Positions 3,893 to 44,867 of a stretch of 45,174 nucleotides of DNA are shown piece after piece; within the stretch, counting starts at the first letter, position 1, and each line of letters opens with the position of its first letter. The notes beneath the pieces are model-generated. The model was not told the DNA's origin and made no database searches. It saw only the letters and a list, made by a program, of their open reading frames with translations. Made by a program: the position numbers and the translations under genes. Origin of the DNA: Rhizobacter sp. Root1221 (GTDB lineage: Bacteria > Pseudomonadota > Gammaproteobacteria > Burkholderiales > Burkholderiaceae_C); contig NZ_LMDI01000003.1 of assembly GCF_001425785.1 (NCBI RefSeq), forward strand, positions 1 to 45,174. The letters are read 5' to 3'.

Positions 3893-3911
3893 ATTGTCCA
3901 TGATGCGGGAT
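3893..3911 (+). promoter_or_regulatory. Degenerate operator-like site upstream of the regulator
   Basis: ATTGTCCATGATGCGGGAT resembles the 16-bp repeated motif GTTGTCAATACGGGAT but with extra bases in the centre. It lies in the 117-bp gap between the regulator (start 3854) and the gene ending at 3972, the place for autoregulation. The match is weak. Confidence 0.35.
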
Positions 3912-3971
3912 AGATGCCGAAGCGGTGGTGCAAATTGGGGCCATTCACCCTGGCCCCCTACCCCCGCCTCA

Positions 3972-4331
3972 TCACATCGGACGGAAGCGGACGGTGATTC
4001 CCGCAACTGAGTCGAGGCATACGCGGCGGTGGACCGTCCTGCCGGACTCCTCAGACAGGTCCAGGTCCTGGACAGTCACGTAGCGTGCCGTCCCATCGGC
4101 ACCCGGAGTCGGCAAGCAGCGCATGTAGCGCAGCGAACCGTCGCCCTTAAGGAACGCTACGCGGACTTCCGCTCCGGTGAATCCGGCGCCCTCCAGCAGG
4201 AGGCGCATGCGGGCCCGATGCGGGCTGTCCGTGAAAGCGCAATGGATCGAATGCTCTGCGGCCACACGCGAGGCATTGATGATGTCGAAAGTAGAAACTG
4301 CGAGGTCGGATTTGATTTCGTGGAGTTGCAT
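3972..4331 (-). CDS. SH3-barrel (DUF2693/WYL_2-like) phage protein
   Basis: A 119-residue protein. Its C-terminal half (about 55-118) has the pattern VRVAFLKGDGSLRYMRC, later YVTVQDLDL and RRVCLDSVAGITVRF, which fits the Sm-like SH3 beta-barrel family (DUF2693) common in phages, where a lysine-aspartate-glycine turn and a final arginine-leucine-aspartate strand are usual. The N-terminal 50 residues are helical. The start at 4331 (MQLHEIK) was chosen where family-like sequence begins. It is in the same direction as the small-gene cluster at 4451-5056, 119 bp downstream of it. Function unknown; a nucleic-acid-binding role is only suggested by the fold. Confidence 0.6.
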   Translation of the reverse strand: MQLHEIKSDLAVSTFDIINASRVAAEHSIHCAFTDSPHRARMRLLLEGAGFTGAEVRVAFLKGDGSLRYMRCLPTPGADGTARYVTVQDLDLSEESGRTVHRRVCLDSVAGITVRFRPM

Positions 4332-4450
4332 GTGGCTTTCGTGGGGTTGTTGGTGACGATTGTCGGCTGGTGGGTGGCTCAAAAGGTGAGCCAGCCGGTG
4401 GCACGAATGCACACCAGCTGGAGGTTTTTGAGCGACTCGGGGGCTGCCGC

Positions 4451-4633
4451 TCAGGGCGCTCCAAGGCGGCGCGAACGGGTCTCCCTGAGGGCTTGCCGGT
4501 AGCCGTCCTCGCTCATCGCCGAGGCGTGCCGGGTCCGGCGCTGGCTGAAGCGCATGCGGTCGATTGCAGCGCGGTCCAGGGCACGCATGCGGGCCTCTTG
4601 GGCATCCTGCGGGGTGGGCTTGTCGGCGGTCAC
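4451..4633 (-). CDS. Small basic phage protein
   Basis: A 60-residue, Arg-rich, mainly helical protein (DAQEARMRALDRAAIDRMRF). It starts with GTG at 4633, overlapping the stop of the preceding gene as GTGA, so it should be translationally coupled. It is the last of four overlapping small genes (5056 to 4451). No family is recognised. Confidence 0.55.
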   Translation of the reverse strand: MTADKPTPQDAQEARMRALDRAAIDRMRFSQRRTRHASAMSEDGYRQALRETRSRRLGAP

Positions 4634-4737
4634 TTGAGGTCCTTAACGGACGACGCGACTGAGGCGGCGAGGAGAACCACGGCCACGGCACATAGCAGCA
4701 AGCAGCCGCCGCCAAAAGTTGCAGCGGCGGGGCTCAT
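4630..4737 (-). CDS. 35-residue single-span membrane peptide
   Basis: MSPAAATFGGGCLLLC begins this very short protein; residues about 8-28 form one transmembrane segment (LLLCAVAVVLLAAS), followed by SSVKDLK. The ATG at 4737 overlaps the upstream stop as ATGA and the stop overlaps the next start as GTGA. This tight double coupling is the main evidence that it is a real gene. Function unknown. Confidence 0.6.
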   Translation of the reverse strand: MSPAAATFGGGCLLLCAVAVVLLAASVASSVKDLK

Positions 4738-4925
4738 GACCGTGCCATTTTCAGCAGAGTCAGCAAGGCGAGGCAGTCGTTCGCGAGTTGGGCGCGCGTT
4801 GCTTCCGTCTCGACATCGTCCTCCCCCGCCCACTCGACCACTCTGTATTCGTGCTCGTCCAGAGCGAACTCGACGTGCCGAAGGAGCGAAGTGAACTGGG
4901 CTTCCGTGAGTTCCAGGCGGATCAT
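4734..4925 (-). CDS. Small acidic phage protein
   Basis: A 63-residue protein starting MIRLELTEAQFTSLL, largely helical and acidic (VVEWAGEDDVETEA), with the look of a small DNA-metabolism or anti-host protein but no recognisable motif. Its ATG at 4925 overlaps the stop of the gene before it (ATGA), and its own stop overlaps the next ATG. It is the second gene in the four-gene cluster. Confidence 0.6.
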   Translation of the reverse strand: MIRLELTEAQFTSLLRHVEFALDEHEYRVVEWAGEDDVETEATRAQLANDCLALLTLLKMARS

Positions 4926-5056
4926 TGCGCGCACTCCTTCGCGTGCTGCTGGGCCTCTGCGAGGGCGTACGCGGTGTCGTCGTACGGGTGCAGAACGTCA
5001 GGCTCGAACAAGGCCACAGCATCAGCAGCGGCGTTCAGGAACTCGATGAGGGACAT
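4922..5056 (-). CDS. 44-residue phage protein, first of a coupled small-gene cluster
   Basis: It starts MSLIEFLNAAADAVALFEPD. The ATG at 5056 was chosen because it gives a compact acidic protein and the next gene is coupled to its stop by ATGA; upstream codons in the same frame are proline-rich and unlikely. It heads a run of four overlapping genes reading left. The 123 bp between it and the next gene upstream carry the operator-like motif at 5162-5177, so expression of the cluster may be under prophage control. Confidence 0.55.
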   Translation of the reverse strand: MSLIEFLNAAADAVALFEPDVLHPYDDTAYALAEAQQHAKECAQ

Positions 5057-5161
5057 GATGGTTCTCCGTGGGGTGGGCCCAAAGGTGGGCGGTGGTGGTC
5101 GCGGGATGCGCACCCGGGAAGCTCTGGGCCTCTCGGCTGAGCACCATCGCTTTGCGGGACG

Positions 5162-5177
5162 GTTGCCGATATGGGAC
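5162..5177 (+). promoter_or_regulatory. Operator-like 16-bp motif, copy A
   Basis: GTTGCCGATATGGGAC, one base from the consensus GTTGCCGATACGGGAC. It is preceded by another GGGAC (5157-5161), giving a near-tandem arrangement. It lies between the stop of 5180-5938 and the start of the small-gene cluster at 5056. Confidence 0.6.
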
Positions 5178-5179
5178 AG

Positions 5180-5938
5180 TTAGGTCGCACGTTGGGCTTC
5201 AAAGCGGCGAGCCTTGGAGCCGTGGACGACGATGACGGGCGATGCCTGGGCCTCTCGCTGGGTGCCGTTGCAAGCTCCACAGCTGGCGCAATCGGTGCGC
5301 TTGCCTGCCTCCTCGCTCGCTGGGCACACGAACTCCCGGGCCTGCAGCGGTTCGGTGGCGAGGCGAATGCGGAAGTACCGCATGCCCTTTGCGCGTGCCT
5401 CCTGGGCCTCTTCAAGGTTGTCCGCCGAGGCCATCACGAGGGCCCGCAGCGCGTCCCGATGGGCCACCGGCAGTGCCTCATTGCGCCACTGGTGCGTGTA
5501 GCCGGTGCGACCGACAGCACGAGACACCAAGGACTGCCACACCCACGCGGGCACCGCTGCCGGGTCACCGTAGGTCCCGAGGCGCACCATGCGCCCGTCA
5601 CCAAGGGCCGCGATGGATTCGGCATCCTGGGCAACCGGATAGATGCCCCGCTGGTGCCCCTTGAAGACCGAAAGCGGGCCATGCATCAAGGTGACGTAGC
5701 AGGCGCCACCGTTCGCGGGCCGCTGCTTGCAGTCACCGCACACGCTCACGTCCTGCCCCGTCTTCGCGGCCTCAGTGGGCGCCACATCGGCCCGGATGAT
5801 GTAGGTCTGGACCATGTCCCCGGTCTTCGCGTTGCTGGAGCGTCGAGCAAAGCCAGTAGCGATTGCCACGATGGGCGCACCGTCGAGCATGCTGGGCCCT
5901 TGGTACAGAACGAAGCCGGTGGGTTGTTTGTTGCTCAT
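5180..5938 (-). CDS. Conserved phage protein (DUF7227-like)
   Basis: A 252-residue protein beginning MSNKQPTGFVLYQGPSMLDG. It matches my recollection of a phage family with an N-terminal GFVLYxGPSMLDG signature, a segment KTGDMVQTYIIRADVAPTEA, then CGDC with a later Cys (about residues 68-80) that could bind metal, and a C-terminal Cys cluster (CPASEEAGKRTDCASCGAC, about 205-223). The two Cys clusters suggest zinc or iron binding. The biochemical role is unknown to me. An operator-like motif (5947-5962) sits 9 bp upstream of the start codon, so a bound repressor would block its transcription or initiation. Confidence 0.65.
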   Translation of the reverse strand: MSNKQPTGFVLYQGPSMLDGAPIVAIATGFARRSSNAKTGDMVQTYIIRADVAPTEAAKTGQDVSVCGDCKQRPANGGACYVTLMHGPLSVFKGHQRGIYPVAQDAESIAALGDGRMVRLGTYGDPAAVPAWVWQSLVSRAVGRTGYTHQWRNEALPVAHRDALRALVMASADNLEEAQEARAKGMRYFRIRLATEPLQAREFVCPASEEAGKRTDCASCGACNGTQREAQASPVIVVHGSKARRFEAQRAT

Positions 5939-5946
5939 GATGGATC

Positions 5947-5962
5947 GTTGCCGAAACGGGAC
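5947..5962 (+). promoter_or_regulatory. Operator-like 16-bp motif, copy B
   Basis: GTTGCCGAAACGGGAC, one base from consensus. It lies immediately upstream of the start at 5938 and just before the stop of the small membrane gene 5964-6104. Confidence 0.65.
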
Positions 5963-5963
5963 T

Positions 5964-6104
5964 TTAGAACGTACGAAGGGTGCGGATGACGGGCACAGAG
6001 AGGGCCGAGCCGGTGACGATGCAGGCGAGGAGAATGAGGGTCATTGCAGTTCCTTGGTGGTTCGTTGTCGCGGCGGGTTGCTGCGATGGGTTGAACTGTG
6101 CCAT
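5964..6104 (-). CDS. 46-residue single-span membrane peptide
   Basis: From ATG at 6104 it reads MAQFNPSQQPAATTNHQ, then a hydrophobic span MTLILLACIVTGSALSVPV (about residues 21-39) and a short basic tail RTLRTF. An internal ATG at 6044 preceded by AAGGAA is an equally good start and would give a 26-residue peptide that is almost only the membrane span. It is leftward, upstream of the conserved phage gene at 5180-5938, with operator-like motifs on both sides. Too short to assign; coding is judged from the ribosome site and membrane profile. Confidence 0.45.
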   Translation of the reverse strand: MAQFNPSQQPAATTNHQGTAMTLILLACIVTGSALSVPVIRTLRTF

Positions 6105-6115
6105 GATCTGCGACC

Positions 6116-6148
6116 GTTGTCAATACGGGATGGTTGTCGATTCGGGTC
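6116..6148 (+). promoter_or_regulatory. Tandem operator-like motifs, copies C1 and C2
   Basis: GTTGTCAATACGGGAT (6116-6131) is followed after one base by GTTGTCGATTCGGGTC (6133-6148). The pair lies between divergent genes (5964-6104 leftward, 6172 rightward). On the minus strand C1 contains TTGACA, a perfect -35 hexamer, but I see no good -10 at 17 bp from it. Bound protein here could control both directions. Confidence 0.65.
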
Positions 6149-6171
6149 GAATCATGCGTTAGCCTCTCCGC

Positions 6172-6876
6172 ATGAACGACATCACCACCACCATTGAGCT
6201 GGTCTTAAAGTCCGCGCAGGTCATTGGAGTTTGCTATGCAGCCTTGAAGGTTGCAGGCGGTGTCGAAGCATGGCGGAGCGAGTACGTTGGCAAACGTCGC
6301 ACCGATCTAGCCGAATCCGTGCTCGTCAAGTTCTTCCACGTCCGCGAGGTTCTCCACGAAATCCGACCAACAGAGAAGGCTGCAAGTGATTTTGCAGGCG
6401 TCGTGGGTACCCGCCTGGGTGCCATGAGTACCGCCTCGATGCTCATGAAGCGTGTCGACGACAACACCGGATTGCTTTCAGAGTTCTATGCCCTAAAGCC
6501 CAGCTTTCTGGCACATTTTCCTGGGTCGGCAGACGACCCCTTCCACCTAGTGCGCCGCGCTGTCGCGAAGATTCGAAGCACTGCCTCCGAAATCGAATTC
6601 TGCACGGACCAGAATCAATCCCCGAATCAGGATTGGTCGCCACACAGCTATCTGGCAGGCCTTGAGGCGAAGCTTGTTCGAGGAGGCAAAGAGGACGAAA
6701 TCACTGAACTGTTCGAGCGCGCGGAACGCTTGCTCACAGGCATGTTGGTGCCACACATTGCGCCTTCTCGGTCGCCTGCGAGGTTCGTCCGCGATGAGTG
6801 TGTGAGGGTCTGGGGCGTAGTGCGCCGCTTCAGAGAAAAAACAGGTGCGGTCAAACAGACGGAAGAGCAGGGTTAG
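6172..6876 (+). CDS. Plus-strand accessory protein, N-terminally membrane-anchored
   Basis: A 234-residue protein. Residues about 8-30 (IELVLKSAQVIGVCYAALKV) are hydrophobic enough for a membrane anchor or buried helix; the rest is helical and charged with no catalytic motif seen. The ATG at 6172 follows tandem operator-like motifs by 24 bp. It is transcribed against the lytic genes, so it is probably expressed in the lysogen as an accessory (moron) gene. Single-anchor proteins of this kind are often host-protective, but nothing in the sequence proves that. Family not recognised. Confidence 0.6.
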   Translation: MNDITTTIELVLKSAQVIGVCYAALKVAGGVEAWRSEYVGKRRTDLAESVLVKFFHVREVLHEIRPTEKAASDFAGVVGTRLGAMSTASMLMKRVDDNTGLLSEFYALKPSFLAHFPGSADDPFHLVRRAVAKIRSTASEIEFCTDQNQSPNQDWSPHSYLAGLEAKLVRGGKEDEITELFERAERLLTGMLVPHIAPSRSPARFVRDECVRVWGVVRRFREKTGAVKQTEEQG

Positions 6877-7203
6877 CCTGCATTCGGGCCACCACACGGC
6901 AGCAGTAGGCAACCCGATGCGCCTCGCTGTGCACCCCGACCACATACCTATCTCTGGTGCCCTGTTCTACGGATCGGTGATCCGCTGGTGTCCGTTATGA
7001 ATCAAGCACTTGGCGCGTGTGGTGCCACGGTGGTGCCAGTGTGGTGCCCACCCTGTGCCCATGTGGTGGCCCGAGAGGTGCCCGCGCCCGGCGTCATGCG
7101 CTTAGGAAAGGCACCCGGCACGGGGGAAGCGCGGCGCCTGTGCTCATCAGATGAGGCCTCGAATTTTTGTGGTGAACTATGCGCACTTCAGCCAGCACGT
7201 CAC
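6877..7203. other. Non-coding stretch with attachment-arm-like repeats
   Basis: No convincing gene in 327 bp; the plus-strand frame that opens at 6988 reads low-quality sequence until 7204. It contains clustered GGTGCC repeats at 7021-7078. One 19-bp segment (7020-7038) is identical to 44755-44773 in the right attachment arm. It may be the relict end of another integrated element that brought in one of the flanking accessory genes. Confidence 0.5.
7020..7038 (+). repeat. 19-bp repeat shared with the right attachment arm
   Basis: TGGTGCCACGGTGGTGCCA is identical to 44755-44773. Both copies hold two TGGTGCCA units 11 bp apart, the unit found repeatedly beside attR. Confidence 0.7.
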
Positions 7204-7548
7204 ATGGAACCTACGAAACCAAAAAGATCGACCTGGAGCCAGATTCACGACGAAGCGTTTGTGAAGCTCATGTTCGACTACTACCGGAACACGGGCATTT
7301 CCGCTGTGTTCTTCGGCGTTGCAAGGTGGGCGTGGACGAGATCCGGTCCTGTCCCCATCTGGTTCACCTACGCCTCTGTGGTGCTCGCGGCAGGCATGGG
7401 CTTCTTTCTGGTGGCTATCAACGAAGCGCACTTCCGGACGCGAGAGCGTGAGTTCCGCCTGAACTCGTGGTTCGCCGTCACCCTTGCCGGGGTTCGCATC
7501 GGAACTTGGGGCATGGTGCTCGCCTACCTGCTTCGAGGAGTTAAGTAA
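7204..7548 (+). CDS. Small two-span membrane protein (accessory)
   Basis: A 114-residue protein starting MEPTKPKRSTWSQIHDEAF. It has two clear hydrophobic segments, about 53-72 (IWFTYASVVLAAGMGFFLVA) and 91-110 (FAVTLAGVRIGTWGMVLAYL), and a weaker one at about 30-40. The frame is open from 6988, but only the part from 7204 looks like protein. No strong ribosome site. It runs convergent to the minus-strand gene ending at 7552, 3 bp away. Function unknown. Confidence 0.5.
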   Translation: MEPTKPKRSTWSQIHDEAFVKLMFDYYRNTGISAVFFGVARWAWTRSGPVPIWFTYASVVLAAGMGFFLVAINEAHFRTREREFRLNSWFAVTLAGVRIGTWGMVLAYLLRGVK

Positions 7549-7551
7549 CCT

Positions 7552-7872
7552 TCAGGGCCCTTTCACCCGCACCCACCAAGCCTGCTTCGAGCGCACTGCC
7601 GGGAGTCCTAGGCGCGGATGAACCTCGAACCCTGAGATGAGCATGTTGGGGCCCTTGATCGCTCGTACCGTGGCCCCGTAGAGCGCAGGGATGAGGTCCA
7701 TGGCACCAGGGGAGTCGCCACCCCGGAGGGTTGCGGCGTATCGGACGTCTGGCACTCCGTCGAGGCGGTAGCCACTTAGGCTCAGGACACCTTCCGAAGG
7801 CTTGGTGGATTCCACCTGCTCCTTGGTCAGCTTCTTACCGTCTGCCCGCAGCCGTAGCACCGTCGCCCTCAT
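7552..7872 (-). CDS. Hypothetical protein downstream of the last phage promoter
   Basis: A 106-residue soluble protein (MRATVLRLRADGKKLTKEQV at the start; SGYRLDGVPDVRYAATLRGG in the middle). I see no catalytic motif; proteins of this look occur in betaproteobacterial mobile regions. The start at 7872 is preceded by GGTAG. It lies 86 bp downstream of the promoter-like element at 7959-7975 in the same direction, so it may be the last gene served by the phage polymerase. Confidence 0.5.
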   Translation of the reverse strand: MRATVLRLRADGKKLTKEQVESTKPSEGVLSLSGYRLDGVPDVRYAATLRGGDSPGAMDLIPALYGATVRAIKGPNMLISGFEVHPRLGLPAVRSKQAWWVRVKGP

Positions 7873-7929
7873 GGCCGCCAGTCTACCTATCGGTAGCAGA
7901 GAAGCCCTCCAGGCGCCCCTTTAGGTACA

Positions 7930-7948
7930 CCTTAAGGGGAGAAGGAGG
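7930..7948. repeat. 19-bp block repeated upstream of the RNA polymerase gene
   Basis: CCTTAAGGGGAGAAGGAGG is identical to 44626-44644. In both places it is followed 10-11 bp later by the 17-bp promoter-like element. The two copies therefore bracket the lytic gene block (8.4-44.6 kb). Confidence 0.75.
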
Positions 7949-7958
7949 ACTCCCTCGG

Positions 7959-7975
7959 CGAGGGGTGGGGTTTAG
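7959..7975 (-). promoter_or_regulatory. Candidate phage RNA polymerase promoter, copy 6
   Basis: On the minus strand CTAAACCCCACCCCTCG, an exact copy of the 17-bp element. It lies downstream of the large terminase, at the end of the lytic block, a place comparable to the T7 right-end promoter. A GTGGG/CCCAC inverted repeat overlaps it, so a terminator role is the alternative. Confidence 0.55.
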
Positions 7976-8080
7976 CCCACCACCGAGTCGAGGGAGTCGC
8001 GCAAGTCGTTGATCCTGCGAGCGATTTGGTCGACGCACTTCGGGCAAAATGAACCTGCGCACAAACATCCGGAGCGACCA

Positions 8081-8422
8081 ATGGGTAACGTCACGAAGCA
8101 CGTCGAACTCGAAGACCGAGTTGACAACGGTTATGGATCACTCCTGCTCTGCCCAAGGTGTGGTGGGCCCAATCTGCATCACGGTCCTGTTGACGTTTAC
8201 GAGTGCCGCGAGGACCGGCCTGGGTTGCATGCCAGCATTGGCGGCGGGAAAGTCGCTGTTGACGAAAACATGAGCGGGAATCCCAGCTCTCGGCGTCATG
8301 GACTCACCATCGGCGTCGAGTGTGAGCACTGTGGGGCCGAGAGCCTTCTCGGGCTTGAGCAGCACAAAGGAGAGACCTTCCTCAACTGGCTTTCCATCGG
8401 ACAAGAAAAGCCGCGCACGTGA
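8081..8422 (+). CDS. Zinc-ribbon hypothetical protein (accessory)
   Basis: A 113-residue protein. Two CxxC pairs, CPRCGGPNLHH (about 24-34) and CEHCGAESLL (about 85-94), should bind one zinc ion. Between them is a conserved-looking SGNPSSRRHGLTI segment. Similar small zinc proteins are scattered in bacterial genomes and prophages with no known role, as I recall. The ATG at 8081 has GGAG seven bases upstream. It is convergent with the large terminase, which ends 4 bp beyond its stop, so it was probably inserted at the end of the lytic operon. Confidence 0.6.
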   Translation: MGNVTKHVELEDRVDNGYGSLLLCPRCGGPNLHHGPVDVYECREDRPGLHASIGGGKVAVDENMSGNPSSRRHGLTIGVECEHCGAESLLGLEQHKGETFLNWLSIGQEKPRT

Positions 8423-8426
8423 GAGC

Positions 8427-10223
8427 CTAAGCAGCTACACCGCCCAGGAACGAGTCCACGATACCGCAGCTATTCCCGCCCTGCCCGCTGGCCTCGATGA
8501 ACCGCTCAATCTCGGCCATGCGGAGCGCCTCCCGGTGCTCCTCCTGGACCCTGGTCACATCCTTGTCCATGACCTCCACCCAATACTTCACGGCCATCGC
8601 CAAGGCATCCAGGCGGTCGTCCTTGGCGAGCGAGCCCTTGTCCTTGGTGATCCGGGTTAGCTGGTAGAGCAGTTGGTAGCGGGGTGCCAGTTCGTCCGAG
8701 TAGTGGTTGTAGTTCTCGTGGTCGTCCTTCACGAGCTTGGAGTCGATGACCAGGCGGTGCTGGTTGAGGACCGGCTCCAGCGTGTCGATGATCCGCAGCT
8801 CCTTCTGCTTCGAGCTATTGACCTCCTCGACGTGACACGGGTGGATGCGGGTGAGGAACGGTAGGAGCAGCTTCGTGAACATGCCGTCACCGAAGTTGGA
8901 CTCCACTACGATGTCGTTCACCCCGAAGCGCTTGGCCTCATGGGCCAGCAGTTCCAGGTTCTCGTCCGTGTAGCCCCCGGTGAGGCCCTTCACGCGGAGC
9001 ACGAACAGGTAGCCGTTGAGCATCGCGACGATGGCATAGGCCAGCTCGTCGCTGCCCCGCCCTGCCGGGTCGATGGACATGACCACGCCCGTGTAGGGCA
9101 GGTAGTGATCCTTGGCGATGAACATGGGGCGGTGCAGGCGGTCCCCTGTCATGCCCACCTGAGGAAGGTCCGAGCGGACCAGCTCCGGGCTATTGGCCCA
9201 CACGCACTGAATGGGGGCCAGCTTCGGGTCGCAGTCGAGGACCATCATGTCCGCCATCTTCAGCGGGTAGCGGTCCATGTCGGCCAAGCTGGGATTCAAC
9301 ATGAACTGCAGCGCGAAGCCAGAGCGCCCGTAGGACAGCTCACGCTCCACCAGGTCCAGGTCAGGGAACCGGCGAGGCTCCGTTGAAGCGCCCCGTTTGG
9401 CGCCCTCGATCCCGTGCTTGTAGGCCAGCGTGGAGTCGGCCTTCAGGTGCTCGACCAGCGAGGGCGCGAGGCGGTCCCCGTAGAGCACCTGCATCTTCTC
9501 GTCGGGGTAGCGCGCCGGCCAGATTCGTGTCACGTAGCCACGCTGCTCCAGCGCCCGGTAGATGGTCGCCTCGGTCTGTGGCGTGCCCAGGAAGACCACC
9601 TCGCCCGCCCCGAGGCCCAGCTGCGCCAGGTCGTCCTCGGACATCATGATGGCGTCGAACTCCTTCACGGCCTCGGACAGCCGGTCACGCATGGTCTGCG
9701 TTAGGGAGTTCTTCGGGACCTCCACGTCGTCAGGGACGATGAGAGAAGCTCGACCGCCAGTGATTTGGCCGGTGATGCCAGCGGCCCGCAGCGACGGTGA
9801 CTGGTGGGCCATCGAGCCGGACACGTCGAAGGCCAGTGCTGAGTCACGGGTGCCCTTCTTCGGGGCCAGGTGGCGCAGGAACGGAGCCTCCTCGATGAGT
9901 CGGCGACAGAACGTGGTGAACTGGGTAGCGCGGTCCTCGTTGGCCGAGACGACCAGGATGCGCTCATTGGGGTTCCTGCAGAGTCGCCACAGGACGAACG
10001 CGGCGGTGATCCACGACTTTCCGATGCCTCGGAACGCCTGGATGATGCGACGGCGGGGGCCGTGCTGAAGGAACGATGCGATGTCGTACTGGATGCCCGT
10101 TGGCTCTTTCAGCCTCAGGTGCTTCCACAGCACGAACACGAAGTTTCGGAAGTCGTTCAGGATCGGGTTCAGCTGCTGCTGGACCGCTTGAGCGACCGGT
10201 GTAAGTTGGGTCAAATGAGACAC
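8427..10223 (-). CDS. Large terminase subunit (T7 gp19-like DNA maturase B)
   Basis: A 598-residue packaging ATPase/nuclease that drives DNA into the prohead through the portal. The Walker A-type motif FRGIGKSWIT (Lys69) matches T7 gp19 closely; the ATPase domain extends to about residue 300, with VFLGTPQTEATIY as a coupling-like segment. The C-terminal nuclease domain has acidic residues in YTGVVMSIDPAGRGSDELAY (about 370-390) and VVESNFGDGMF. Length is near that of T7 gp19 (586). The start is GTG at 10223. Unlike in T7, it is separated from the small terminase by 580 bp and a plus-strand gene. Confidence 0.93.
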   Translation of the reverse strand: MSHLTQLTPVAQAVQQQLNPILNDFRNFVFVLWKHLRLKEPTGIQYDIASFLQHGPRRRIIQAFRGIGKSWITAAFVLWRLCRNPNERILVVSANEDRATQFTTFCRRLIEEAPFLRHLAPKKGTRDSALAFDVSGSMAHQSPSLRAAGITGQITGGRASLIVPDDVEVPKNSLTQTMRDRLSEAVKEFDAIMMSEDDLAQLGLGAGEVVFLGTPQTEATIYRALEQRGYVTRIWPARYPDEKMQVLYGDRLAPSLVEHLKADSTLAYKHGIEGAKRGASTEPRRFPDLDLVERELSYGRSGFALQFMLNPSLADMDRYPLKMADMMVLDCDPKLAPIQCVWANSPELVRSDLPQVGMTGDRLHRPMFIAKDHYLPYTGVVMSIDPAGRGSDELAYAIVAMLNGYLFVLRVKGLTGGYTDENLELLAHEAKRFGVNDIVVESNFGDGMFTKLLLPFLTRIHPCHVEEVNSSKQKELRIIDTLEPVLNQHRLVIDSKLVKDDHENYNHYSDELAPRYQLLYQLTRITKDKGSLAKDDRLDALAMAVKYWVEVMDKDVTRVQEEHREALRMAEIERFIEASGQGGNSCGIVDSFLGGVAA

Positions 10224-10381: not shown

Positions 10382-10408
10382 GATTCCAAATACACATAGG
10401 GGAACGAT

Positions 10409-10762: not shown

Positions 10763-10803
10763 CCATCGTTGCTGCTGCGCCGTACTGTGACGCAGCAGCA
10801 GCG

Positions 10804-31245: not shown

Positions 31246-31262
31246 CGAGGGGTGGGGGCTAG
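31246..31262 (-). promoter_or_regulatory. Candidate phage RNA polymerase promoter, copy 5
   Basis: On the minus strand CTAGCCCCCACCCCTCG, two changes from the 17-bp element, followed by CTAAACC as in copies 3 and 4. It lies 41 bp upstream of the first structural gene, where a late promoter is expected. Confidence 0.6.
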
Positions 31263-37464: not shown

Positions 37465-39111
37465 TCAGAACTCCTCGTGATGTTTGGTTGCCGAACCGGA
37501 ACGGTCCGAGAAAAGGGGCGGTTCGAGCGCACTAAGGTCTGCCTTGAACAGCAGGCCCGTTGCTGGGTCGTAGTCGAGCGGGATGGTCTTGCCAGTGGCT
37601 TGACCGGTGTTGCGGTCCTTGAGGACTCGGAAGGTCGTGATGCGGTCGGCCGCTTCCTCGCCTTGGGTGTTGCGCTCCAAGCCGAACATGAAGTGCGCCC
37701 ACATCCCGATGGCGTTGGAGCCACGGAACTGCGCCTGCTTCACCCGGCCGCCCTCCTCGTGTGACGGCCCGTCCTTGGGGCGCGTCAGGTGGGAGATGAA
37801 GTGCAGCATGACCTTCAGCTCCAAGGCCAGCGCGGCCAGCTCTGCCATGAGCTTGTCGAGTGCCTTGCGCTCGTCCTCCTCCTGAGCCACGAGGGCGGTG
37901 AGGTGGTCGAGGTAGATGCACTTGCAGCCCAGGCCAACGGCCATGTACCGAATCTTCCCCTTCACGACTTCCCAGTCCGTGGACCCGAAGCTGTCGTAGA
38001 AGTGGATGCGGCCGGTGTCGCGCAGCTTCCCGATTGCCTCGCGGCGCTCCTCACGGGTCGCCTTGCCGGGCACATGCAGGACCTTGCCGTCCACCTTGCC
38101 AGCGATGCGGCGCAGCGTCTCGACCGGGGGCTGCTCCAGGTAGAGCACACCCACGGCCAGGCCGAGCTTCATCACGTCGAAGGCGATGGACTGCGTGAAC
38201 CAGTCGGTCTTCCCGATGCCGGTGCCCGCACCGAAGGCGTAGCACTCGCCCTCGCGACGACCGTAGGTCAGCTCCGTGAGGACATCGAGCCACCACGACA
38301 GGCCCACTTCAGGGTCCACCTCGGCGGCCTCGGCCAGGTCGTCAATGGACCGGATGCCGTCAGGGCGGTACACCTTGGCGGCCCAGATGGCGTCGATGAC
38401 CTCGGACCCCCTGCCCGCCTTGAGCATGTCGTTGGGGTCCTTCAGGGGCAGCGAGGCCACCTTGCACTTCCCCGGAGCGAACAGCGGGGCGACATCATCG
38501 CGGGCCTCACGGCCAGGCTCGTCGTTGTCGAACATCAGGACCACTTCATCGAACTTGCCGAGCCACTCGATGTTGGCGCGGATGGCCTTCTCGGCCGAGC
38601 CGGTGCCCGAGGGGATGCTCACCACAGGCCACTTGTTGCCCTGCAGCTGCGAGACCGACATGGCGTCAATCTCGCCCTCGGTGATGACCACCTTCTTGCC
38701 TCCGTCGCGCCACAGGTGTTGGCCGAACAGCTCGAAGGCGAAGCCCTTGGCGTCACCAACCCAGGCAAAGTTCTTCTCCGCATCCCGGGTGTGCTGCGCG
38801 ACCAGTTCGCCGTCCTTGTAGTACGGGGCGATGTGGACCTTCTTACCATTGCGAACGCCGATTCGGTAGCCGAAGTGCTGGCAGGTTTCCTCGCTGATGC
38901 CGCGAGCCCGCAGCGCCTCGACCTCGCCCGTCAAGGGCGTGAAGTCTTGAGCCACAGTGGGCCTCCTTTTCGTGGGAACAGAGCCGTCAGCAGGCTCGTA
39001 GTGGTCGCAGCCGAAGCAGAAACCGTGGCCGTCCGTATAGCGAGCGAGGTTGTCCCTCGACCCGCACGCGGGGCATGGCTCCTTGTGCGTGAAGTGGGAC
39101 TCGTCGGTCAC
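37465..39111 (-). CDS. DNA primase-helicase (T7 gp4-like)
   Basis: A 548-residue bifunctional replisome protein (T7 gp4A has 566). The zinc-binding primase domain has Cys13, Cys16, Cys32 and Cys35 (CPACG, CFGC). The TOPRIM region shows VVITEGEIDAMSVSQL (about 137-152) and VVLMFDNDEPGREA. The helicase Walker A motif is GAGTGIGKTDWFTQS (about 275-289) and Walker B is near CIYLDHLTAL. Acidic C-terminus LFSDRSGSATKHHEEF, for polymerase contact, ends in Phe as in T7. GTG start at 39111 overlaps the preceding stop. Confidence 0.95.
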   Translation of the reverse strand: MTDESHFTHKEPCPACGSRDNLARYTDGHGFCFGCDHYEPADGSVPTKRRPTVAQDFTPLTGEVEALRARGISEETCQHFGYRIGVRNGKKVHIAPYYKDGELVAQHTRDAEKNFAWVGDAKGFAFELFGQHLWRDGGKKVVITEGEIDAMSVSQLQGNKWPVVSIPSGTGSAEKAIRANIEWLGKFDEVVLMFDNDEPGREARDDVAPLFAPGKCKVASLPLKDPNDMLKAGRGSEVIDAIWAAKVYRPDGIRSIDDLAEAAEVDPEVGLSWWLDVLTELTYGRREGECYAFGAGTGIGKTDWFTQSIAFDVMKLGLAVGVLYLEQPPVETLRRIAGKVDGKVLHVPGKATREERREAIGKLRDTGRIHFYDSFGSTDWEVVKGKIRYMAVGLGCKCIYLDHLTALVAQEEDERKALDKLMAELAALALELKVMLHFISHLTRPKDGPSHEEGGRVKQAQFRGSNAIGMWAHFMFGLERNTQGEEAADRITTFRVLKDRNTGQATGKTIPLDYDPATGLLFKADLSALEPPLFSDRSGSATKHHEEF

Positions 39112-39484: not shown

Positions 39485-39497
39485 GTGGGTCTCCTGT

Positions 39498-39884: not shown

Positions 39885-39983
39885 GTGGGAAATTCCTTGA
39901 TGAGGGAACGTTGGACGTGAGTAGCCAGCCCGCCCCGTGAGGGGCAGGACGTGGGTCGCCTAAGAAGGACTTGGGAGGTTTAG

Positions 39984-40000
39984 CGAGGGGTGGGGTTTAG
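39984..40000 (-). promoter_or_regulatory. Candidate phage RNA polymerase promoter, copy 4
   Basis: Exact minus-strand CTAAACCCCACCCCTCG followed by CTAAACC. It overlaps the stop of the gene 39997-40230 and lies 100 bp upstream of the 39884 start, heading the primase-polymerase block. Confidence 0.65.
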
Positions 40001-40230: not shown

Positions 40231-40670
40231 GGCTTGAGGGTTCCGGTTGCGAGCCAATGCTTCACGTCGAAGCTAGGGCACGCCTTGTTGACATGGGAGA
40301 AGTCACGATGGCCCTGGATGACCGCCAACGGGTGGTCCTCCTCCAGCTTCGTGAGCAGTTGGTTCAGGCCGTCCATCTGGGCCGGCGTGAAGTTGGGTTC
40401 GGGCTTGAGCTTGGCGTCCACGCCACCAACCAGGCAGATGCCCAGAGAGCAGTGGTTCCAGTCCTCGACATGGGCGCCCGGCTGGTTGTCGGGGCGGCCC
40501 TTCTCGACCGTGCCATCACGGCGGATCACGTAGTGATAGCCGATGCAGCGGAAGCCACGGTCGCGGTGCATGCGGTCGAGTTCCTTGGCGCCGATGTCTC
40601 GGTTGCCAGGAGTTGCCGAGCAGTGGACCGCGATGAACTTCACCTCGGTCAGTGGTTTCGGTCCGGCCAT
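40227..40670 (-). CDS. N-acetylmuramoyl-L-alanine amidase (T7 gp3.5-like lysozyme)
   Basis: A 147-residue zinc amidase (T7 lysozyme has 151). Zinc ligands are visible: His in AVHCSATPGN (about 15), His in QGHRDFSHVN (about 122) and Cys in KACPSFDV (about 132), plus the catalytic Tyr (GYHYVIRRDG) and Lys. It would cleave peptidoglycan at lysis. In T7 the same protein binds the phage RNA polymerase and slows it; whether this one does is inference. Start at 40670 by TGATG junction. Confidence 0.93.
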   Translation of the reverse strand: MAGPKPLTEVKFIAVHCSATPGNRDIGAKELDRMHRDRGFRCIGYHYVIRRDGTVEKGRPDNQPGAHVEDWNHCSLGICLVGGVDAKLKPEPNFTPAQMDGLNQLLTKLEEDHPLAVIQGHRDFSHVNKACPSFDVKHWLATGTLKP

Positions 40671-41101
40671 CAGCTGGCCTCGTTCTTCTTCATGGGGGTC
40701 TCGGTGAGCCACGCAGGCGGGATGAACTTGTCGGCGTACTTGAAGCCGTTCTTCTCGCACCACATGGCGTAGGTCGTTGGGGAGGTCTTGCTGATGCGTG
40801 CTCGGCTGTTGCTGAACACGAACCGGATGTCGAGGTGCGGATGCTGCTTCTGGATCAGCAGGTGCTTCTGGCGGTCATCGGTGAGGAACCGACCTTTCGT
40901 CTCGATGACGATGCCGCTGGGGAGAACCCAGTCCGGCGTGTACTTGGCCCTCTTCTCAGGCTTCACGTACTCGATCTTGGACGCCTCGTAGGCAGCATCC
41001 ACACCGGCAGCGGCGAGCTGGCGAGCAACCTGCTCCTCCAGCCCGCTGCGATAGCCGTGTGCGATGCCGAGGGACTTAGAAGTCCTCGTGGTTCGGGCCA
41101 T
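40670..41101 (-). CDS. Endonuclease I, Holliday junction resolvase (T7 gp3-like)
   Basis: A 143-residue resolvase (T7 has 149). The PD-(D/E)XK active site is clear: YTPDWVLPSGIVIETKGRFL has Asp, Glu and Lys at T7-like spacing (about residues 55-70). N-terminal GYRSGLEEQVARQL is the first catalytic helix with Glu. It cuts branched DNA and host DNA. ATG at 41101 overlaps the SSB gene by 26 bp. Confidence 0.93.
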   Translation of the reverse strand: MARTTRTSKSLGIAHGYRSGLEEQVARQLAAAGVDAAYEASKIEYVKPEKRAKYTPDWVLPSGIVIETKGRFLTDDRQKHLLIQKQHPHLDIRFVFSNSRARISKTSPTTYAMWCEKNGFKYADKFIPPAWLTETPMKKNEAS

Positions 41102-41795
41102 CCGAACCCGTGTCGCTGCCACCCGAGCGGTCTTCGAAGCCACCCGAGGTGGCCTCGCTGTCGCCCTCGTAGCCGTCCTCGCGGGCACCGAAGCCGTAGC
41201 TGCCGGCACTGCGGTCACCACCGCCGCTGCTGCGCAGTTCGATGATCTGCACGGCCTTCAGGCGCAGCGAGAGGCCGACCCCGATGGGCATGCTGAACGG
41301 ACGCAGTTCGCCAGCCACGCACGCCGTTGTGCCGCCCCAGATTTCCGGCGGGTTCTTCAACAGGGCGCCCTTCGCGTCGAAGATGTCCGGCTTCATGGTG
41401 ACCACCTTGCCGTCCTTCGAGGACTTGAAGCTGGCGGGCATCTTGAAGTTGAACTCGAACTCGTCGGTCTCGTTGCCGTCATCGTCGTAGGCCGGCTTGA
41501 AGGGCTTGTCGGCTTCCTTCATCTCAGCCAGGGCCTTCTTCGCCTTGGCCTTCTCGGGCCCGGTCTTGGCGTCCGAGACCTTCTGCTCCAGCTCGGCCTG
41601 GGCGATGGGCCAGTACTTCTTCAGCTCGGCCTCGAACTGCTTGATGAGTTTGGCGCTGGCCTCGGCGTCCAGGCGAACCTTGCCCTGGTACTCGCCCTCA
41701 GCCTTGAACTTGGTGTCAGGGGCGTTGAGCTTCGGGTACACGAGGGTGCCCGGGTCGGTCATCACCTTGGCGAAGGTCTTCTTGTTCGTCGTCAC
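41076..41795 (-). CDS. Single-stranded DNA-binding protein (T7 gp2.5-like)
   Basis: A 239-residue protein (T7 gp2.5 has 232). N-terminus FAKVMTDPGTLVYPKLNAPD and the FKAEGEYQGKVRLD strand are typical. The C-terminus is acidic and ends in an aromatic residue (GSDTGSDGPNHEDF), as needed in T7 for contacts with polymerase and helicase. GTG start at 41795 overlaps the previous stop. Confidence 0.93.
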   Translation of the reverse strand: MTTNKKTFAKVMTDPGTLVYPKLNAPDTKFKAEGEYQGKVRLDAEASAKLIKQFEAELKKYWPIAQAELEQKVSDAKTGPEKAKAKKALAEMKEADKPFKPAYDDDGNETDEFEFNFKMPASFKSSKDGKVVTMKPDIFDAKGALLKNPPEIWGGTTACVAGELRPFSMPIGVGLSLRLKAVQIIELRSSGGGDRSAGSYGFGAREDGYEGDSEATSGGFEDRSGGSDTGSDGPNHEDF

Positions 41796-42055
41796 TTGCG
41801 GAATTCCTGTTCGATGTACTGGGAGAGAGCACGAAGCTCGATGGAGTAATGGTCCTCGGCGTGCCGGCGAACCCGGCGGGCCTTGTCGAGCATCTCGCTC
41901 GGGTCCAGTTGCAGGCTGCTGCAGACCTCGTGGAAGAGGACGGCGATGCCCATGACCTGCATTGCGGCCGGGCTGTCCTGCGCCCCGCTGAGGGCAGCGT
42001 AGGCAGTCTGGATCGTGGAATGGGCGGGGACCATGTTGAGTTGGTCGCGGTTCAT
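41792..42055 (-). CDS. Hypothetical early phage protein
   Basis: An 87-residue helical protein (MNRDQLNMVPAHSTIQTAYA; MLDKARRVRRHAEDHYSIEL). It is the first gene after the promoter-like element at 42098-42114 and overlaps the SSB start. ATG at 42055 lies 13 bp after AAGGA, a slightly long spacing. No recognised motif. Its position suggests an early or replication accessory role. Confidence 0.6.
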   Translation of the reverse strand: MNRDQLNMVPAHSTIQTAYAALSGAQDSPAAMQVMGIAVLFHEVCSSLQLDPSEMLDKARRVRRHAEDHYSIELRALSQYIEQEFRK

Positions 42056-42097
42056 CAGCGCATTGGTTCCTTTCTGGTTTGCGTCTGGTTGGTTTAG

Positions 42098-42114
42098 CGA
42101 GGGGTGGGGTTTAG
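42098..42114 (-). promoter_or_regulatory. Candidate phage RNA polymerase promoter, copy 3
   Basis: Exact minus-strand CTAAACCCCACCCCTCG followed by CTAAACC. It lies between the RNA polymerase gene and the SSB operon, 43 bp upstream of the 42055 start. Confidence 0.7.
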
Positions 42115-42136
42115 GCACCACCTCGCATCAGCAACC

Positions 42137-42152
42137 GTCCCGTTTACGGGAT
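42137..42152. promoter_or_regulatory. Operator-like inverted repeat behind the RNA polymerase gene
   Basis: GTCCCGTTTACGGGAT has arms TCCCGT and ACGGGA around TT. It looks like two ACGGGAC half-sites of the repeated operator motif in opposed orientation and is preceded by GCAACC. It lies between the polymerase stop (42155) and the next gene. Confidence 0.5.
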
Positions 42153-42154
42153 CA

Positions 42155-44581
42155 TTAGGCGAAGAAATACTCGGACTGCCTCACTTGAGCCAGCTCCAGG
42201 GTGCCCATCGGGGGCAGCTCGGGGAGTTCCTGTCGCAACTCCTCGGGCAGCTGCTCGGCCAGTTGGTCCCTGAACTGTTCGAGGACCGGGTCGCTGTATT
42301 GGGCGACGAACGCCTCCCGTAGGTTGTCCCGGAGCTGAGCCGCGAGGCCTGCGTGCACCCCGTAGCTGTCGTGGATCATGGCGAAGTCCTTCATACCGTC
42401 CTCGGCACAGAACAGCACCGTGCGCATCAGGTGAGCCGCGTCCAGGCTGTGGACGAAGTTCGGGCTGATGCCCAGGGACTGCTTGCGCGTGTTCAGCTTG
42501 TCGCCATCCTTGACGATGTGGAAGCGGAGGCGGCGCCCCAGCACGACGAAGTCCATCTCCTCGCCCACGTCCTGCCGGTAGTCCTGCACCGCCAGGAAGC
42601 CGGCCGGGGTCACCCAGCGCACCGGCAGATCGTTGGACGCAGCCACCTTGGCCGCCTCGCGGAGCCAGTCCATCGCCCGTCGAGCGGCCACCACCACGTT
42701 GCCGATGGCCTCGTAGTTGCACGCGGCGAGGTAGCTGGCGTCGATGGACCGGTGCTGCGCTTCGCTCTCCTTCAGCTCGCCGAACAGCTGGTCGCGCATG
42801 CCACGGCGGGTGACCCCGTAAGGGACCGTCATGGTGTTGCGCTTGGCGTGCTTGCGGGACATCTTCCCGACCCAGCGCTGGGCTACCTCATGGTTCTCCG
42901 ACTCGGGGTCTGCCGCGTCCCGGTCGATGATGACCTGGGCAGCCCGTGCTACCTCGCTGTAGATGTCGGCTGGCTTGTGGTTGGGCATCAGGCCGGTCGC
43001 AGCGCCACCAACCTCGTCGCGCAGCATCGCGCTGAAGTTCTGGAGCCCGTTGCAACTGCCATCGAAGGCGACCGCAATGTGGCTCTCGAACTCCCCTTCT
43101 GCTCCGCCTGCATCGACGTGCGACTGGAGCCGCGCCCACTCGTGGCAGAAGGCCAGGAAAACGAACGGGCTGTCGGCCTCCATCCAGAATGTTGCTGATC
43201 CGGGACGATTGGCCGAATCGAGGATGTCATCGGCATGCGCCTCCACCCAATCGATGCGTTCCTGGAAGCTGACCTTGTCCACGCCGAAGCTGTTGGCCCC
43301 GTGGATGGCGAGCCAGTAGGCACCCTCCTCTCCCAGTGGGTGCCCCTTCGTGAACCGCAGGAGGCCCTTGGCGAGGTCATCGCCCTGTGGCGTGAGTGAC
43401 GGGCCCACCGGGTACATCCGTCCGCGCCAGTCGAGGTTGTAGACGTAATGGAAGCGGTTGCCCTTCTCCATCATCAACTCGGCCATCCAGAGCTTGTCCA
43501 CTACCTGGCGGCGCTTGGATTCGGTCTTGGCGTTCAGCTCCCAGACCTTCGCAGCCTCCACCTTCCACGCGTGCAACACCTCACGGTTGGGCTCCTCACC
43601 CTCGGCCCAGGACCGGGACGGCAGTTCGACCTTCTCGCGGCTGGGCAGACCGGCGTCCGCACGGTTGTTTTCCCAGAGCATGCGGGCCACCGCGAAGGTG
43701 TCCGGGTTGATGGACCACTCGGTCGCCTGGAGCGCGTTCACGCTCGCGTAGACCCATGGCATGTCCCACTCCTTCAGTTCCGTCAGGTAGCCCTTGTTGC
43801 GAGTCTTCACGAGCGGCTGGCGCAGGCGGTGCGACAGGAAGCCGCCGTTGAACGGGTTCGTCCAGTCGCGGGGCGGGCACACCATCGGCATGCGGACCGG
43901 GTTGAGCAGCTCGCAGCGCGCGTGCGACTCCTCCAACCACATCCGGCAGGACTCGGTGGGGCGGACCACAGTCTGCGTCTTCCCCTTGCCGATGGCGACC
44001 GTTTCGACAGCCACGAGGCCCGTGCTCTCTGCGAACATCATCAGCAGCAGCGAGCCCACCCGGGTGCGAACACCATCGTCCCACTGCACCACCTTCACGT
44101 CGGCCAGCTCGCCACCCTTTCGGATGAACAGGGCCTTGTTCCGGTCAGCGGACATACCGGCCATGCGCTTGACCATCTTCGCGCCGAGCTTCGGGTTGGC
44201 CTTGAGGATGGCGTCGATGTTCAGGTGGCCCTCCAGGGACATTGCCAGGGACAGCGCAACGCGACCCATCGGGGGACGGTCCGCGAGCTGCCCAAGGGCG
44301 CCCTGTGCGGTCAGCCACGCGCACGCTGCCACGTCGAGCTGGTTGATGAAGTGGTACAGGCTCGCGCTGCGTGCAGCGAGGCCCTGACCCGTCTTCTCCA
44401 GCCACGCGGCCAGAGCTTCCTCCATTGGCTTGAGGGCAGCCTTCATGAGCTGCTGGCCGGCAGGCACAGCGGTGTCGCCGCCATCCTCCAACGCCTTGCG
44501 GTAGCGGGCGATGCCCATTTCAACGGACAGGTTCTCCAGCTCGTGCTGGGCTTCGATGCGAGCGGTCAAGGACAGGTTCAT
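42155..44581 (-). CDS. Single-subunit DNA-dependent RNA polymerase (T7 gp1-like)
   Basis: An 808-residue polymerase (T7 has 883), the first lytic gene and the driver of all later transcription. Catalytic residues are all present: Asp507 (VAFDGSCNGLQNF), Lys580 and Tyr588 (KRNTMTVPYGVTRRG), His737-Asp738 (FAMIHDSYG), and the C-terminal SEYFFA that mirrors T7's FAFA foot. Pro precedes Tyr588 where T7 has Ala, a possible specificity or speed difference. ATG at 44581 follows AAGAGAG; upstream in-frame sequence is not protein-like. Two promoter-like elements and two operator-like motifs lie upstream. Confidence 0.97.
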   Translation of the reverse strand: MNLSLTARIEAQHELENLSVEMGIARYRKALEDGGDTAVPAGQQLMKAALKPMEEALAAWLEKTGQGLAARSASLYHFINQLDVAACAWLTAQGALGQLADRPPMGRVALSLAMSLEGHLNIDAILKANPKLGAKMVKRMAGMSADRNKALFIRKGGELADVKVVQWDDGVRTRVGSLLLMMFAESTGLVAVETVAIGKGKTQTVVRPTESCRMWLEESHARCELLNPVRMPMVCPPRDWTNPFNGGFLSHRLRQPLVKTRNKGYLTELKEWDMPWVYASVNALQATEWSINPDTFAVARMLWENNRADAGLPSREKVELPSRSWAEGEEPNREVLHAWKVEAAKVWELNAKTESKRRQVVDKLWMAELMMEKGNRFHYVYNLDWRGRMYPVGPSLTPQGDDLAKGLLRFTKGHPLGEEGAYWLAIHGANSFGVDKVSFQERIDWVEAHADDILDSANRPGSATFWMEADSPFVFLAFCHEWARLQSHVDAGGAEGEFESHIAVAFDGSCNGLQNFSAMLRDEVGGAATGLMPNHKPADIYSEVARAAQVIIDRDAADPESENHEVAQRWVGKMSRKHAKRNTMTVPYGVTRRGMRDQLFGELKESEAQHRSIDASYLAACNYEAIGNVVVAARRAMDWLREAAKVAASNDLPVRWVTPAGFLAVQDYRQDVGEEMDFVVLGRRLRFHIVKDGDKLNTRKQSLGISPNFVHSLDAAHLMRTVLFCAEDGMKDFAMIHDSYGVHAGLAAQLRDNLREAFVAQYSDPVLEQFRDQLAEQLPEELRQELPELPPMGTLELAQVRQSEYFFA

Positions 44582-44625
44582 GTTGCTCTCTTGTGGTGTT
44601 GCTGGAAGGACCCCTTGAGGTGCTG

Positions 44626-44644
44626 CCTTAAGGGGAGAAGGAGG
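44626..44644. repeat. 19-bp block repeated at the end of the lytic region
   Basis: CCTTAAGGGGAGAAGGAGG, identical to 7930-7948; again adjacent to a 17-bp promoter-like element. Confidence 0.75.
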
Positions 44645-44655
44645 GGCCACCTCCC

Positions 44656-44672
44656 CGAGGGGTGGGGTTTAG
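44656..44672 (-). promoter_or_regulatory. Candidate phage RNA polymerase promoter, copy 2
   Basis: Exact minus-strand CTAAACCCCACCCCTCG followed by GGGAGG, which resembles the GGGAGA initiation sequence of T7 promoters. It lies 75 bp upstream of the RNA polymerase start, so the polymerase would amplify its own transcription. Confidence 0.7.
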
Positions 44673-44683
44673 GCCCCGCTTTG

Positions 44684-44699
44684 GTTGCCGATACGGGAC
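44684..44699 (+). promoter_or_regulatory. Operator-like 16-bp motif, copy E
   Basis: GTTGCCGATACGGGAC, used here as the consensus. It lies 11 bp upstream (in transcription sense) of promoter-like copy 2 and 103 bp upstream of the RNA polymerase start. Confidence 0.7.
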
Positions 44700-44797
44700 G
44701 ATTGGCGCGGACTACTGCCCACTCAGCGCACTGCGCCAGGGGGCCTGTTGGACTTGGTGCCACGGTGGTGCCACCAAGGGTGTCCAGGTCAAATCAT

Positions 44798-44814
44798 CGA
44801 GGGGTGGGGTTTAG
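44798..44814 (-). promoter_or_regulatory. Candidate phage RNA polymerase promoter, copy 1
   Basis: Exact minus-strand CTAAACCCCACCCCTCG, then ATGATT. It is the rightmost copy, 217 bp upstream of the RNA polymerase start, comparable to a T7 left-end promoter. Confidence 0.6.
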
Positions 44815-44838
44815 TCACACATCAATCCCATAAATCGG

Positions 44839-44867
44839 ATTGTTGCACATACGGGACGTTTAGTCAG
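44839..44867 (-). promoter_or_regulatory. Host-type promoter with operator in the spacer
   Basis: On the minus strand CTGACT (44862-44867) and AACAAT (44839-44844) are separated by exactly 17 bp; each matches four of six consensus positions. The operator-like motif GTTGCACATACGGGAC (plus strand 44842-44857) covers the spacer and most of the -10 hexamer, so a bound repressor would block it. It would start transcription into the RNA polymerase gene. Confidence 0.55.
44842..44857 (+). promoter_or_regulatory. Operator-like 16-bp motif, copy F
   Basis: GTTGCACATACGGGAC, two bases from consensus, placed inside the promoter at 44839-44867. Confidence 0.65.

Follow-up and report, generated by a model that had tools for sequence, protein, structure and literature searches.

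A dispersed motif, probably the operators of a MarR-like lysogeny repressor, in a T7-like prophage of Rhizobacter sp. Root1221

Introduction

How does a temperate phage that relies on its own powerful RNA polymerase (RNAP) stay silent in the lysogen? This question is raised by a stretch of 45,174 nucleotides from Rhizobacter sp. Root1221 (assembly GCF_001425785.1, contig NZ_LMDI01000003.1, positions 1 to 45,174 of the forward strand; hereafter the window), which contains an integrated temperate T7-like (Autographiviridae) prophage. The element carries a T7-type RNAP, T7-like replication and virion genes, an integrase and flanking direct repeats. Read along the minus strand, its genes run in the order RNAP, primase, DNA polymerase, connector and terminase, with a MarR-like protein and the integrase at the opposite end. 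An original prediction, made from the letters of this stretch, had described a dispersed 16-bp motif and proposed that it represents the repressor regulon of the prophage. The analysis reported here supports this proposal as the best reading of the sequence: the motif copies are probably the operators of the prophage's lysogeny repressor, which is most likely the MarR-like protein encoded at 3477-3854. This reading is carried by the confinement of the motif to the prophage, its occurrence in the early region and around the RNAP gene, the overlap of one copy with a TTGACA box, its distinctness from the likely phage promoter, and a correlation between MarR-like proteins and operators among related phages.

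A dispersed motif confined to the prophage

The window was scanned for matches to the predicted 16-bp consensus at three mismatches or fewer, with 100 dinucleotide-preserving shuffles as control. Nine matches were found, compared with a shuffle mean of 0.50 and a largest shuffle count of 3. The six copies listed by the original prediction were recovered at their positions, all on one strand and with 0-3 mismatches to the consensus, and the inverted-repeat relative that it had placed at 42137-42152 also exists. The remaining three matches (30373, 37487 and 43191) are located within the connector, primase and RNAP coding sequences, respectively. The candidate operator sites, together with two matches that may be due to chance, are as follows:

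5162..5177, minus strand: candidate operator copy, 1 mismatch; two bases past the stop codon of the open reading frame (ORF) 5180-5938
5947..5962, minus strand: candidate operator copy, 1 mismatch; one base past the TAA of a possible 26-codon ORF (5964-6044), before ORF 5180-5938
6116..6131, minus strand: candidate operator copy ATCCCGTATTGACAAC, 3 mismatches; its right half has TTGACA at 6118-6123
6133..6148, minus strand: candidate operator copy GACCCGAATCGACAAC, 3 mismatches; in the gap before the plus-strand ORF 6172-6876
42137..42152, minus strand: candidate operator, dyad form ATCCCGTAAACGGGAC; two bases past the RNAP stop codon, 23 bp upstream of a likely phage-promoter copy
44684..44699, minus strand: candidate operator copy with the perfect consensus, 0 mismatches; upstream of RNAP, 12 bp upstream of a likely phage-promoter copy
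44842..44857, minus strand: candidate operator copy, 2 mismatches; upstream of RNAP, 28 bp upstream of a likely phage-promoter copy
37487..37502, minus strand: weak operator-like match, may be chance; 3 mismatches, matrix score 23.0, at the 3' end of the primase ORF
43191..43206, minus strand: match, may be chance; 2 mismatches, matrix score 21.9, within the RNAP coding sequence

An iterated position matrix run over the window gave ten sites, all ten on the minus strand; it retained the weak coding sites (30371, 37485 and 43189) and added one at 4138. The site at 42137 is the most symmetric form of the motif (TCCCGT-AA-ACGGGA), yet it was lost from this matrix. A degenerate copy that had been proposed at 3893-3911 is unproven, as it gives no ungapped match at three mismatches or fewer and lies below the matrix threshold. 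The partial dyad symmetry ascribed to the motif stands insofar as the copies are imperfect dyads, but the axis is clearer at 42137 than in the GT..C..AT..G..AC pattern originally put forward.

Throughout the 6.87-Mb genome, seven motif sites occur at two mismatches or fewer, five of which are within the prophage. A reversed control pattern has 14 genome matches at the same threshold, so the motif outside the prophage is not above chance and, as predicted, is not frequent in the host chromosome (two of the seven sites). A looser pattern with N positions and one mismatch was uninformative (128 genome matches vs 50 for its control), and the exact 15-base core, found in 50 stretches of viral contigs with one match each, was taken to be at chance level there.

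Within the prophage the sites are found in the early region and around the RNAP gene, in agreement with the claimed clustering at the lysogeny end and upstream of RNAP. The TTGACA of the 6116-6131 copy is a possible -35 box of a putative promoter, with CACAGT 17 bp further. Moreover, three of the seven sites in the window begin within three bases past a stop codon, namely that of ORF 5180-5938, that of the possible 26-codon ORF and that of RNAP.

A MarR-like protein as the likely repressor

The proposed repressor is encoded close to the left end of the prophage:

3477..3854, minus strand: MarR-like protein of 125 residues, the proposed repressor (phrog_9665, E 1.2e-16)

In Pfam searches with this protein, the families MarR_2 (26.3 bits, cut-off 27) and MarR (24.3 bits, cut-off 24.6) both fell just short, and HTH_27 passed. 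Its structural model has a predicted local distance difference test score (pLDDT) of 90, and the best Foldseek matches are MarR regulators, among them BpsR, NadR and AbfR bound to DNA, with template modelling (TM) scores of 0.5-0.7. As modelled, the protein has a MarR-type fold. We infer that it binds the motif and acts as a repressor, in which case the symmetric form at 42137 would be the ideal site.

This assignment is favoured by a comparison of 25 phages, in which the similarity of the MarR-like proteins correlates with the similarity of the stretch past RNAP (r 0.53, permutation p 0.0002), more strongly than RNAP similarity does with operator-stretch similarity (r 0.34). The partial correlation between MarR and operator given RNAP is 0.43 (p 0.0002), and the plain correlation is 0.40 in pairs with RNAP similarity below 0.6. 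The best case is that of Pseudomonas phage LUZ100 and locus L153, with a similarity of 0.81 for the operators, 0.40 for MarR and 0.35 for RNAP. The MarR-like proteins of the window and LUZ100 are 31% identical over 97 residues; by BLASTP, the regulators of phages S2B and jiawei are similar to that of the window only over about 30 residues, and the Pasto regulator shows no similarity to it.

It is unlikely that the sites serve another prophage regulator instead, for example the product of the divergent plus-strand ORF 6172-6876. This ORF starts 24 bp from the 6133 copy and adjoins two copies, it is without a known family, and the copy ahead of the MarR gene is the unproven one at 3893. Such a regulator would, however, leave aside that MarR and operator similarity still go together in the 25 phages once RNAP similarity is allowed for, and that a three-row profile placed a MarR-like protein beside an integrase in 14 of 17 records (three being host genomes, where the match may be chromosomal).

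A second motif, the likely phage RNAP promoter

Absent from the list of the original prediction is a second dispersed motif, CTAAACCCCACCCCTCG, of which the minus strand holds five exact copies and a sixth that has two mismatches. Genome-wide, six of its eight matches at two mismatches or fewer are in the prophage. They are distributed as follows:

44798..44814, minus strand: likely phage RNAP promoter, exact copy; the first of two before RNAP
44656..44672, minus strand: likely phage RNAP promoter, exact copy; before RNAP
42098..42114, minus strand: likely phage RNAP promoter, exact copy; after RNAP
39984..40000, minus strand: likely phage RNAP promoter, exact copy; upstream of the primase ORF
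31246..31262, minus strand: likely phage RNAP promoter, 2 mismatches; upstream of the connector gene
7959..7975, minus strand: likely phage RNAP promoter, exact copy; after the terminase large subunit gene

The transcription starts of LUZ100 have been mapped experimentally, and parts of the paper describing them place the phage promoters phi1 before RNAP, phi2 and phi3 after RNAP, phi4 and phi5 before the primase, phi6 before the connector, phi7 before the capsid gene and phi8 after the terminase (PMC10134795). TACCACACAG is common to seven of the eight annotated phage-promoter stretches of LUZ100, phi5 being the exception; a counterpart of phi7 upstream of the capsid gene was not found in the window. 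Because CTAAACCCCACCCCTCG is placed like the mapped LUZ100 phage promoters, it is likely to be the promoter of the phage RNAP, and the 16-bp motif a different element. In the nearest relative found, the prophage L087 in a Comamonadaceae assembly (RNAP 67%), the promoter has the diverged form CTAAACCCCGACCTTCGC before and after the RNAP gene, and L142-L146 carry related promoter forms.

The two motifs are arranged in pairs. The candidate operators at 44842, 44684 and 42137, i.e. three of the seven operator sites, end 28, 12 and 23 bp upstream of a CTAAACCCCACCCCTCG copy, and none of 20,000 random placements of seven positions equalled three sites 12-28 bp upstream of a promoter. Two further repeats are present in these regions: a separate inverted repeat, CAATCC-GATTTATG-GGATTG, at 44812-44842 between the 44842 operator copy and the 44798 promoter copy, and an 83% repeat (7916-7978 and 44611-44675) that holds a phage-promoter copy with the stretch following it and is found near both ends of the phage gene order.

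That the 16-bp motif might itself be the phage RNAP promoter was rejected once CTAAACCCCACCCCTCG fitted the LUZ100 promoter positions. All copies of the 16-bp motif do point the same way as the phage genes, two are upstream of RNAP, and several follow TAA-containing sequence, a feature reminiscent of T7-type promoters. Yet CTAAACCCCACCCCTCG not only occupies the mapped positions but also co-diverges with RNAP in L087; the LUZ100 counterpart of the 16-bp motif is located in the spacers of host promoters; and neither the consensus nor the matrix scan of the window found a good operator copy upstream of the connector, capsid or terminase genes. We consider a promoter function of the motif very improbable.

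Counterparts in related phages

Matrix-hit sets were prepared for four annotated phages, LUZ100, Pasto, S2B and jiawei. In LUZ100, the counterpart of the motif (ACTATCCAC..GCGCATA / ACTATCCACYAGCGCATA) is found in the spacers of P1 and P2, both mapped host promoters, at two places upstream of phi1 (in terminator region T4), directly after RNAP and after several other genes; the sites at 6963, 11567, 22148 and 34509 are at no annotated promoter. Counterparts occur at like places in Pasto (GTCACTCAAGGGTGAC), S2B (GATACTTGCGTCAG) and jiawei (CCATGCAAACATGG). Matrix hits have their midpoint outside genes in 8 of 15 cases in LUZ100, 12 of 18 in Pasto, 9 of 14 in S2B and 5 of 9 in jiawei, where noncoding positions amount to 5.5-8.9%. 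A stop-codon test took 32 of the 56 hits (coding strand, score at least 20), and 14 of these 32 begin between -3 and +15 of the stop of a coding sequence vs 2.5-2.8% of positions. The strand bias of the hits is weaker in the relatives (13:2 in LUZ100, 11:3 in S2B, 12:6 in Pasto and 6:3 in jiawei) than in the window (10:0).

In L087, TCGTCCG dyads stand beside the promoters, before RNAP, twice after RNAP, in the early region and before the MarR gene; these dyad-like or well-placed examples were chosen by eye out of 22 matches. L170 (RNAP 37%) shares the 16 bp of the 42137 site, likewise placed after RNAP, and ahead of its RNAP ATCCCGTAACTGCAAC is flanked by TTGACA and AACAGT; no MarR-like gene is present in the L170 record, which is a fragment. 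A seed search of 19 loci revealed operator-like seeds in six (LUZ100, S2B, jiawei, Pasto, L089 and L119), promoter-like seeds in five (the window, L142, L143, L144 and L088) and nothing clear in eight. Bordetella phage BB8 (L024) carries five TCACTGGGAG copies in its early region, at 2475, 2935, 3499, 4053 and 4783, each shortly before an ATG, which perhaps represent a shared leader with a ribosome-binding site; BLASTP found no MarR-like neighbour in BB8.

An RNA-level element at gene junctions, either a terminator or an RNase processing hairpin, would agree with the several copies directly past stop codons and with the two LUZ100 copies in terminator region T4 and one in T16, but is hardly credible and was dropped, since the folding of seven 41-nt stretches was no better than that of shuffles (z -1.33 to 1.41) and copies between the -35 and -10 boxes (LUZ100 P1 and P2; L170) would lie outside the transcript of that promoter.

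A signature behind the RNAP stop codon

Sequence patterns past the RNAP stop were sought in 122 of the 141 available RNAP loci (135 and 6 named); eight of the 122 were dropped, and the remaining 114 loci were compared with a background of 2,810 other ORF stops. TCC at offset 4 or 5 past the stop is found in 41 loci (about 4 expected), GCA at offset 14 in 16 (2.1 expected) and GGA at offset 14 or 15 in 24 (3.0 expected). After thinning to 62 loci with less than 60% identity, TCC is retained in 20, GCA in 3 and GGA in 16. The three patterns were picked after part of the same loci had been viewed, and the p-values are thus optimistic. Dyads with at least six of eight pairs follow the RNAP stop in 34 of 62 loci vs 30% of other stops (p 0.0014), with eight of eight pairs in none. 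The association of the signature with an integrase or MarR gene was tested on 42 of 80 viral loci, 39 of which have at least 2 kb upstream; such a gene is present in 11 of 12 loci with the signature vs 15 of 27 without it (Fisher p 0.028).

Proposed silencing of the prophage

Taken as operators of the MarR-like protein, the sites suggest a route to silence. A dimer of the MarR-like protein would occupy, in the lysogen, the early-region sites (6116-6148, 5947 and 5162) and the sites bracketing the RNAP gene (44842, 44684 and 42137), just upstream of the likely phage RNAP promoters. With MarR bound, no RNAP would be made and the middle and late genes would stay silent; since RNAP would not be made in the lysogen, the CTAAACCCCACCCCTCG promoter set would be dead.

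Several observations weigh against this reading. The operators closest to those of the window, in L156 and L169 (0.75), are accompanied by MarR proteins with similarities of 0.14 and 0.10. The copies are mostly imperfect dyads and share a single orientation, an unusual arrangement for a MarR dimer, and a sigma-70 scan of 2000-8500 and of the region near RNAP called no promoter. The dyad enrichment past RNAP is small (mean 5.48 vs 5.16 pairs). Of 67 loci given a repeat-count test past the RNAP stop, only eight, which do not include the window, reached significance, and some of these eight reflect promoter repeats rather than operator repeats; S2B (p 0.25) and jiawei (p 0.46) were not significant. 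Finally, 15 of the 26 viral loci carrying an integrase or MarR gene are without this exact signature.

The prophage and its surroundings

The main features that define the ends and the transcription machinery of the prophage are the following:

1877..2064, plus strand: direct repeat, left copy, 188 bp, likely attachment site, 97% identical to 44920-45107
2342..3508, minus strand: tyrosine integrase (PF00589, E 9.6e-19)
42155..44650, minus strand: T7-type single-subunit RNAP (PF00940, E 6.7e-108; phrog_414)
44920..45107, plus strand: direct repeat, right copy, 97% identical to 1877-2064

ARAGORN found no tRNA in the window, and one tRNA, unassigned, is located directly outside the right direct repeat. 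Two plus-strand ORFs, 6172-6876 and 7177-7548, oppose the direction of the phage genes; neither has a match in Pfam, and in PHROGs both ORF 6172-6876 and the second ORF, taken in its longer frame 6988-7548, gave none. Among deposited phages, Caulobacter phage S2B, phage jiawei and Pseudomonas phage LUZ100 are closest by RNAP (38-39%); a search of genome contigs with RNAP alone returned no match. Phage jiawei (L025, OR464703.1) is on record as a Mycobacterium phage, yet in gene order and in its RNAP-integrase-MarR layout it comes close to Caulobacter phage S2B, and the host label appears doubtful.

Elsewhere in the same genome, outside the window (G000:C11:114000-126000, L225), a T7-like RNAP is split over two ORFs about 1.7 kb apart near a HipA-like gene, one of 309 residues with the N-terminal domain and one of 590 residues with the catalytic domain. 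In the two other matching genomes (G016 and G129) among the 200 examined in the family, the RNAP match again falls in two open frames.

Comparison with known systems

MarR control of lysogeny in such phages has been proposed before but little mapped. Parts of the LUZ100 paper propose that MarR represses the promoter before RNAP, phi1, and cite Boeckman et al. (2022) for proposed MarR sites flanking the promoter upstream of RNAP in temperate T7-like phages (PMC10134795). As far as these parts describe it, LUZ100 resembles the window in the gene order MarR-integrase-RNAP and in having phage promoters before and after RNAP, before the primase and connector region and after the terminase; they name no operator sequence (PMC10134795). 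In the window, both a candidate operator motif and a likely promoter motif are mapped here. The operator letters differ, being GTCCCGTATCGGCAAC in the window and ACTATCCACYAGCGCATA in LUZ100. Our literature search found nothing on MarR operators in temperate Autographiviridae prophages. Three things are new: explicit candidate operators, the pairing of these with promoters, and the site past the stop codon of RNAP. Candidate operators and promoters are now named in the window, in LUZ100 and in several relatives.

The copies beside stop codons hint at a stoperator-like role as well. According to parts of the published accounts, the stoperators of the cluster A mycobacteriophages L5 and Bxb1 are, like the sites in the window, dispersed and in one orientation with respect to transcription; some of the stoperators are at promoters and others in short intergenic gaps (PMC6550527, PMC9283540). 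The same sources describe the L5-type sites as 13-14 bp long, without dyad symmetry, numbering 20-30 and bound by an unrelated monomeric repressor (PMC6550527, PMC9283540). The window differs from them in its imperfect dyads and its MarR-like protein: the single orientation is shared, whereas the sites are not asymmetric, given the perfect-arm dyads at 42137 and in L087, and they number about 7-10 rather than 20-30 per genome. Since many sites stand past stop codons in one orientation, the blocking of elongation may nevertheless be a serious addition to repression at promoters.

As a tentative extension, which we consider possible but on balance doubtful, temperate T7-like phages may be silenced by a stoperator-like network, in which MarR-type repressors would occupy promoters as well as oriented sites just past stop codons, that of RNAP in particular, and there halt host or phage RNA polymerase during elongation. 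The site after RNAP would then be a conserved landmark of the group, the letters of which change with the repressor. If it is true that the sites behind stop codons block elongation, the mycobacteriophage mechanism would have an independent T7-like counterpart.

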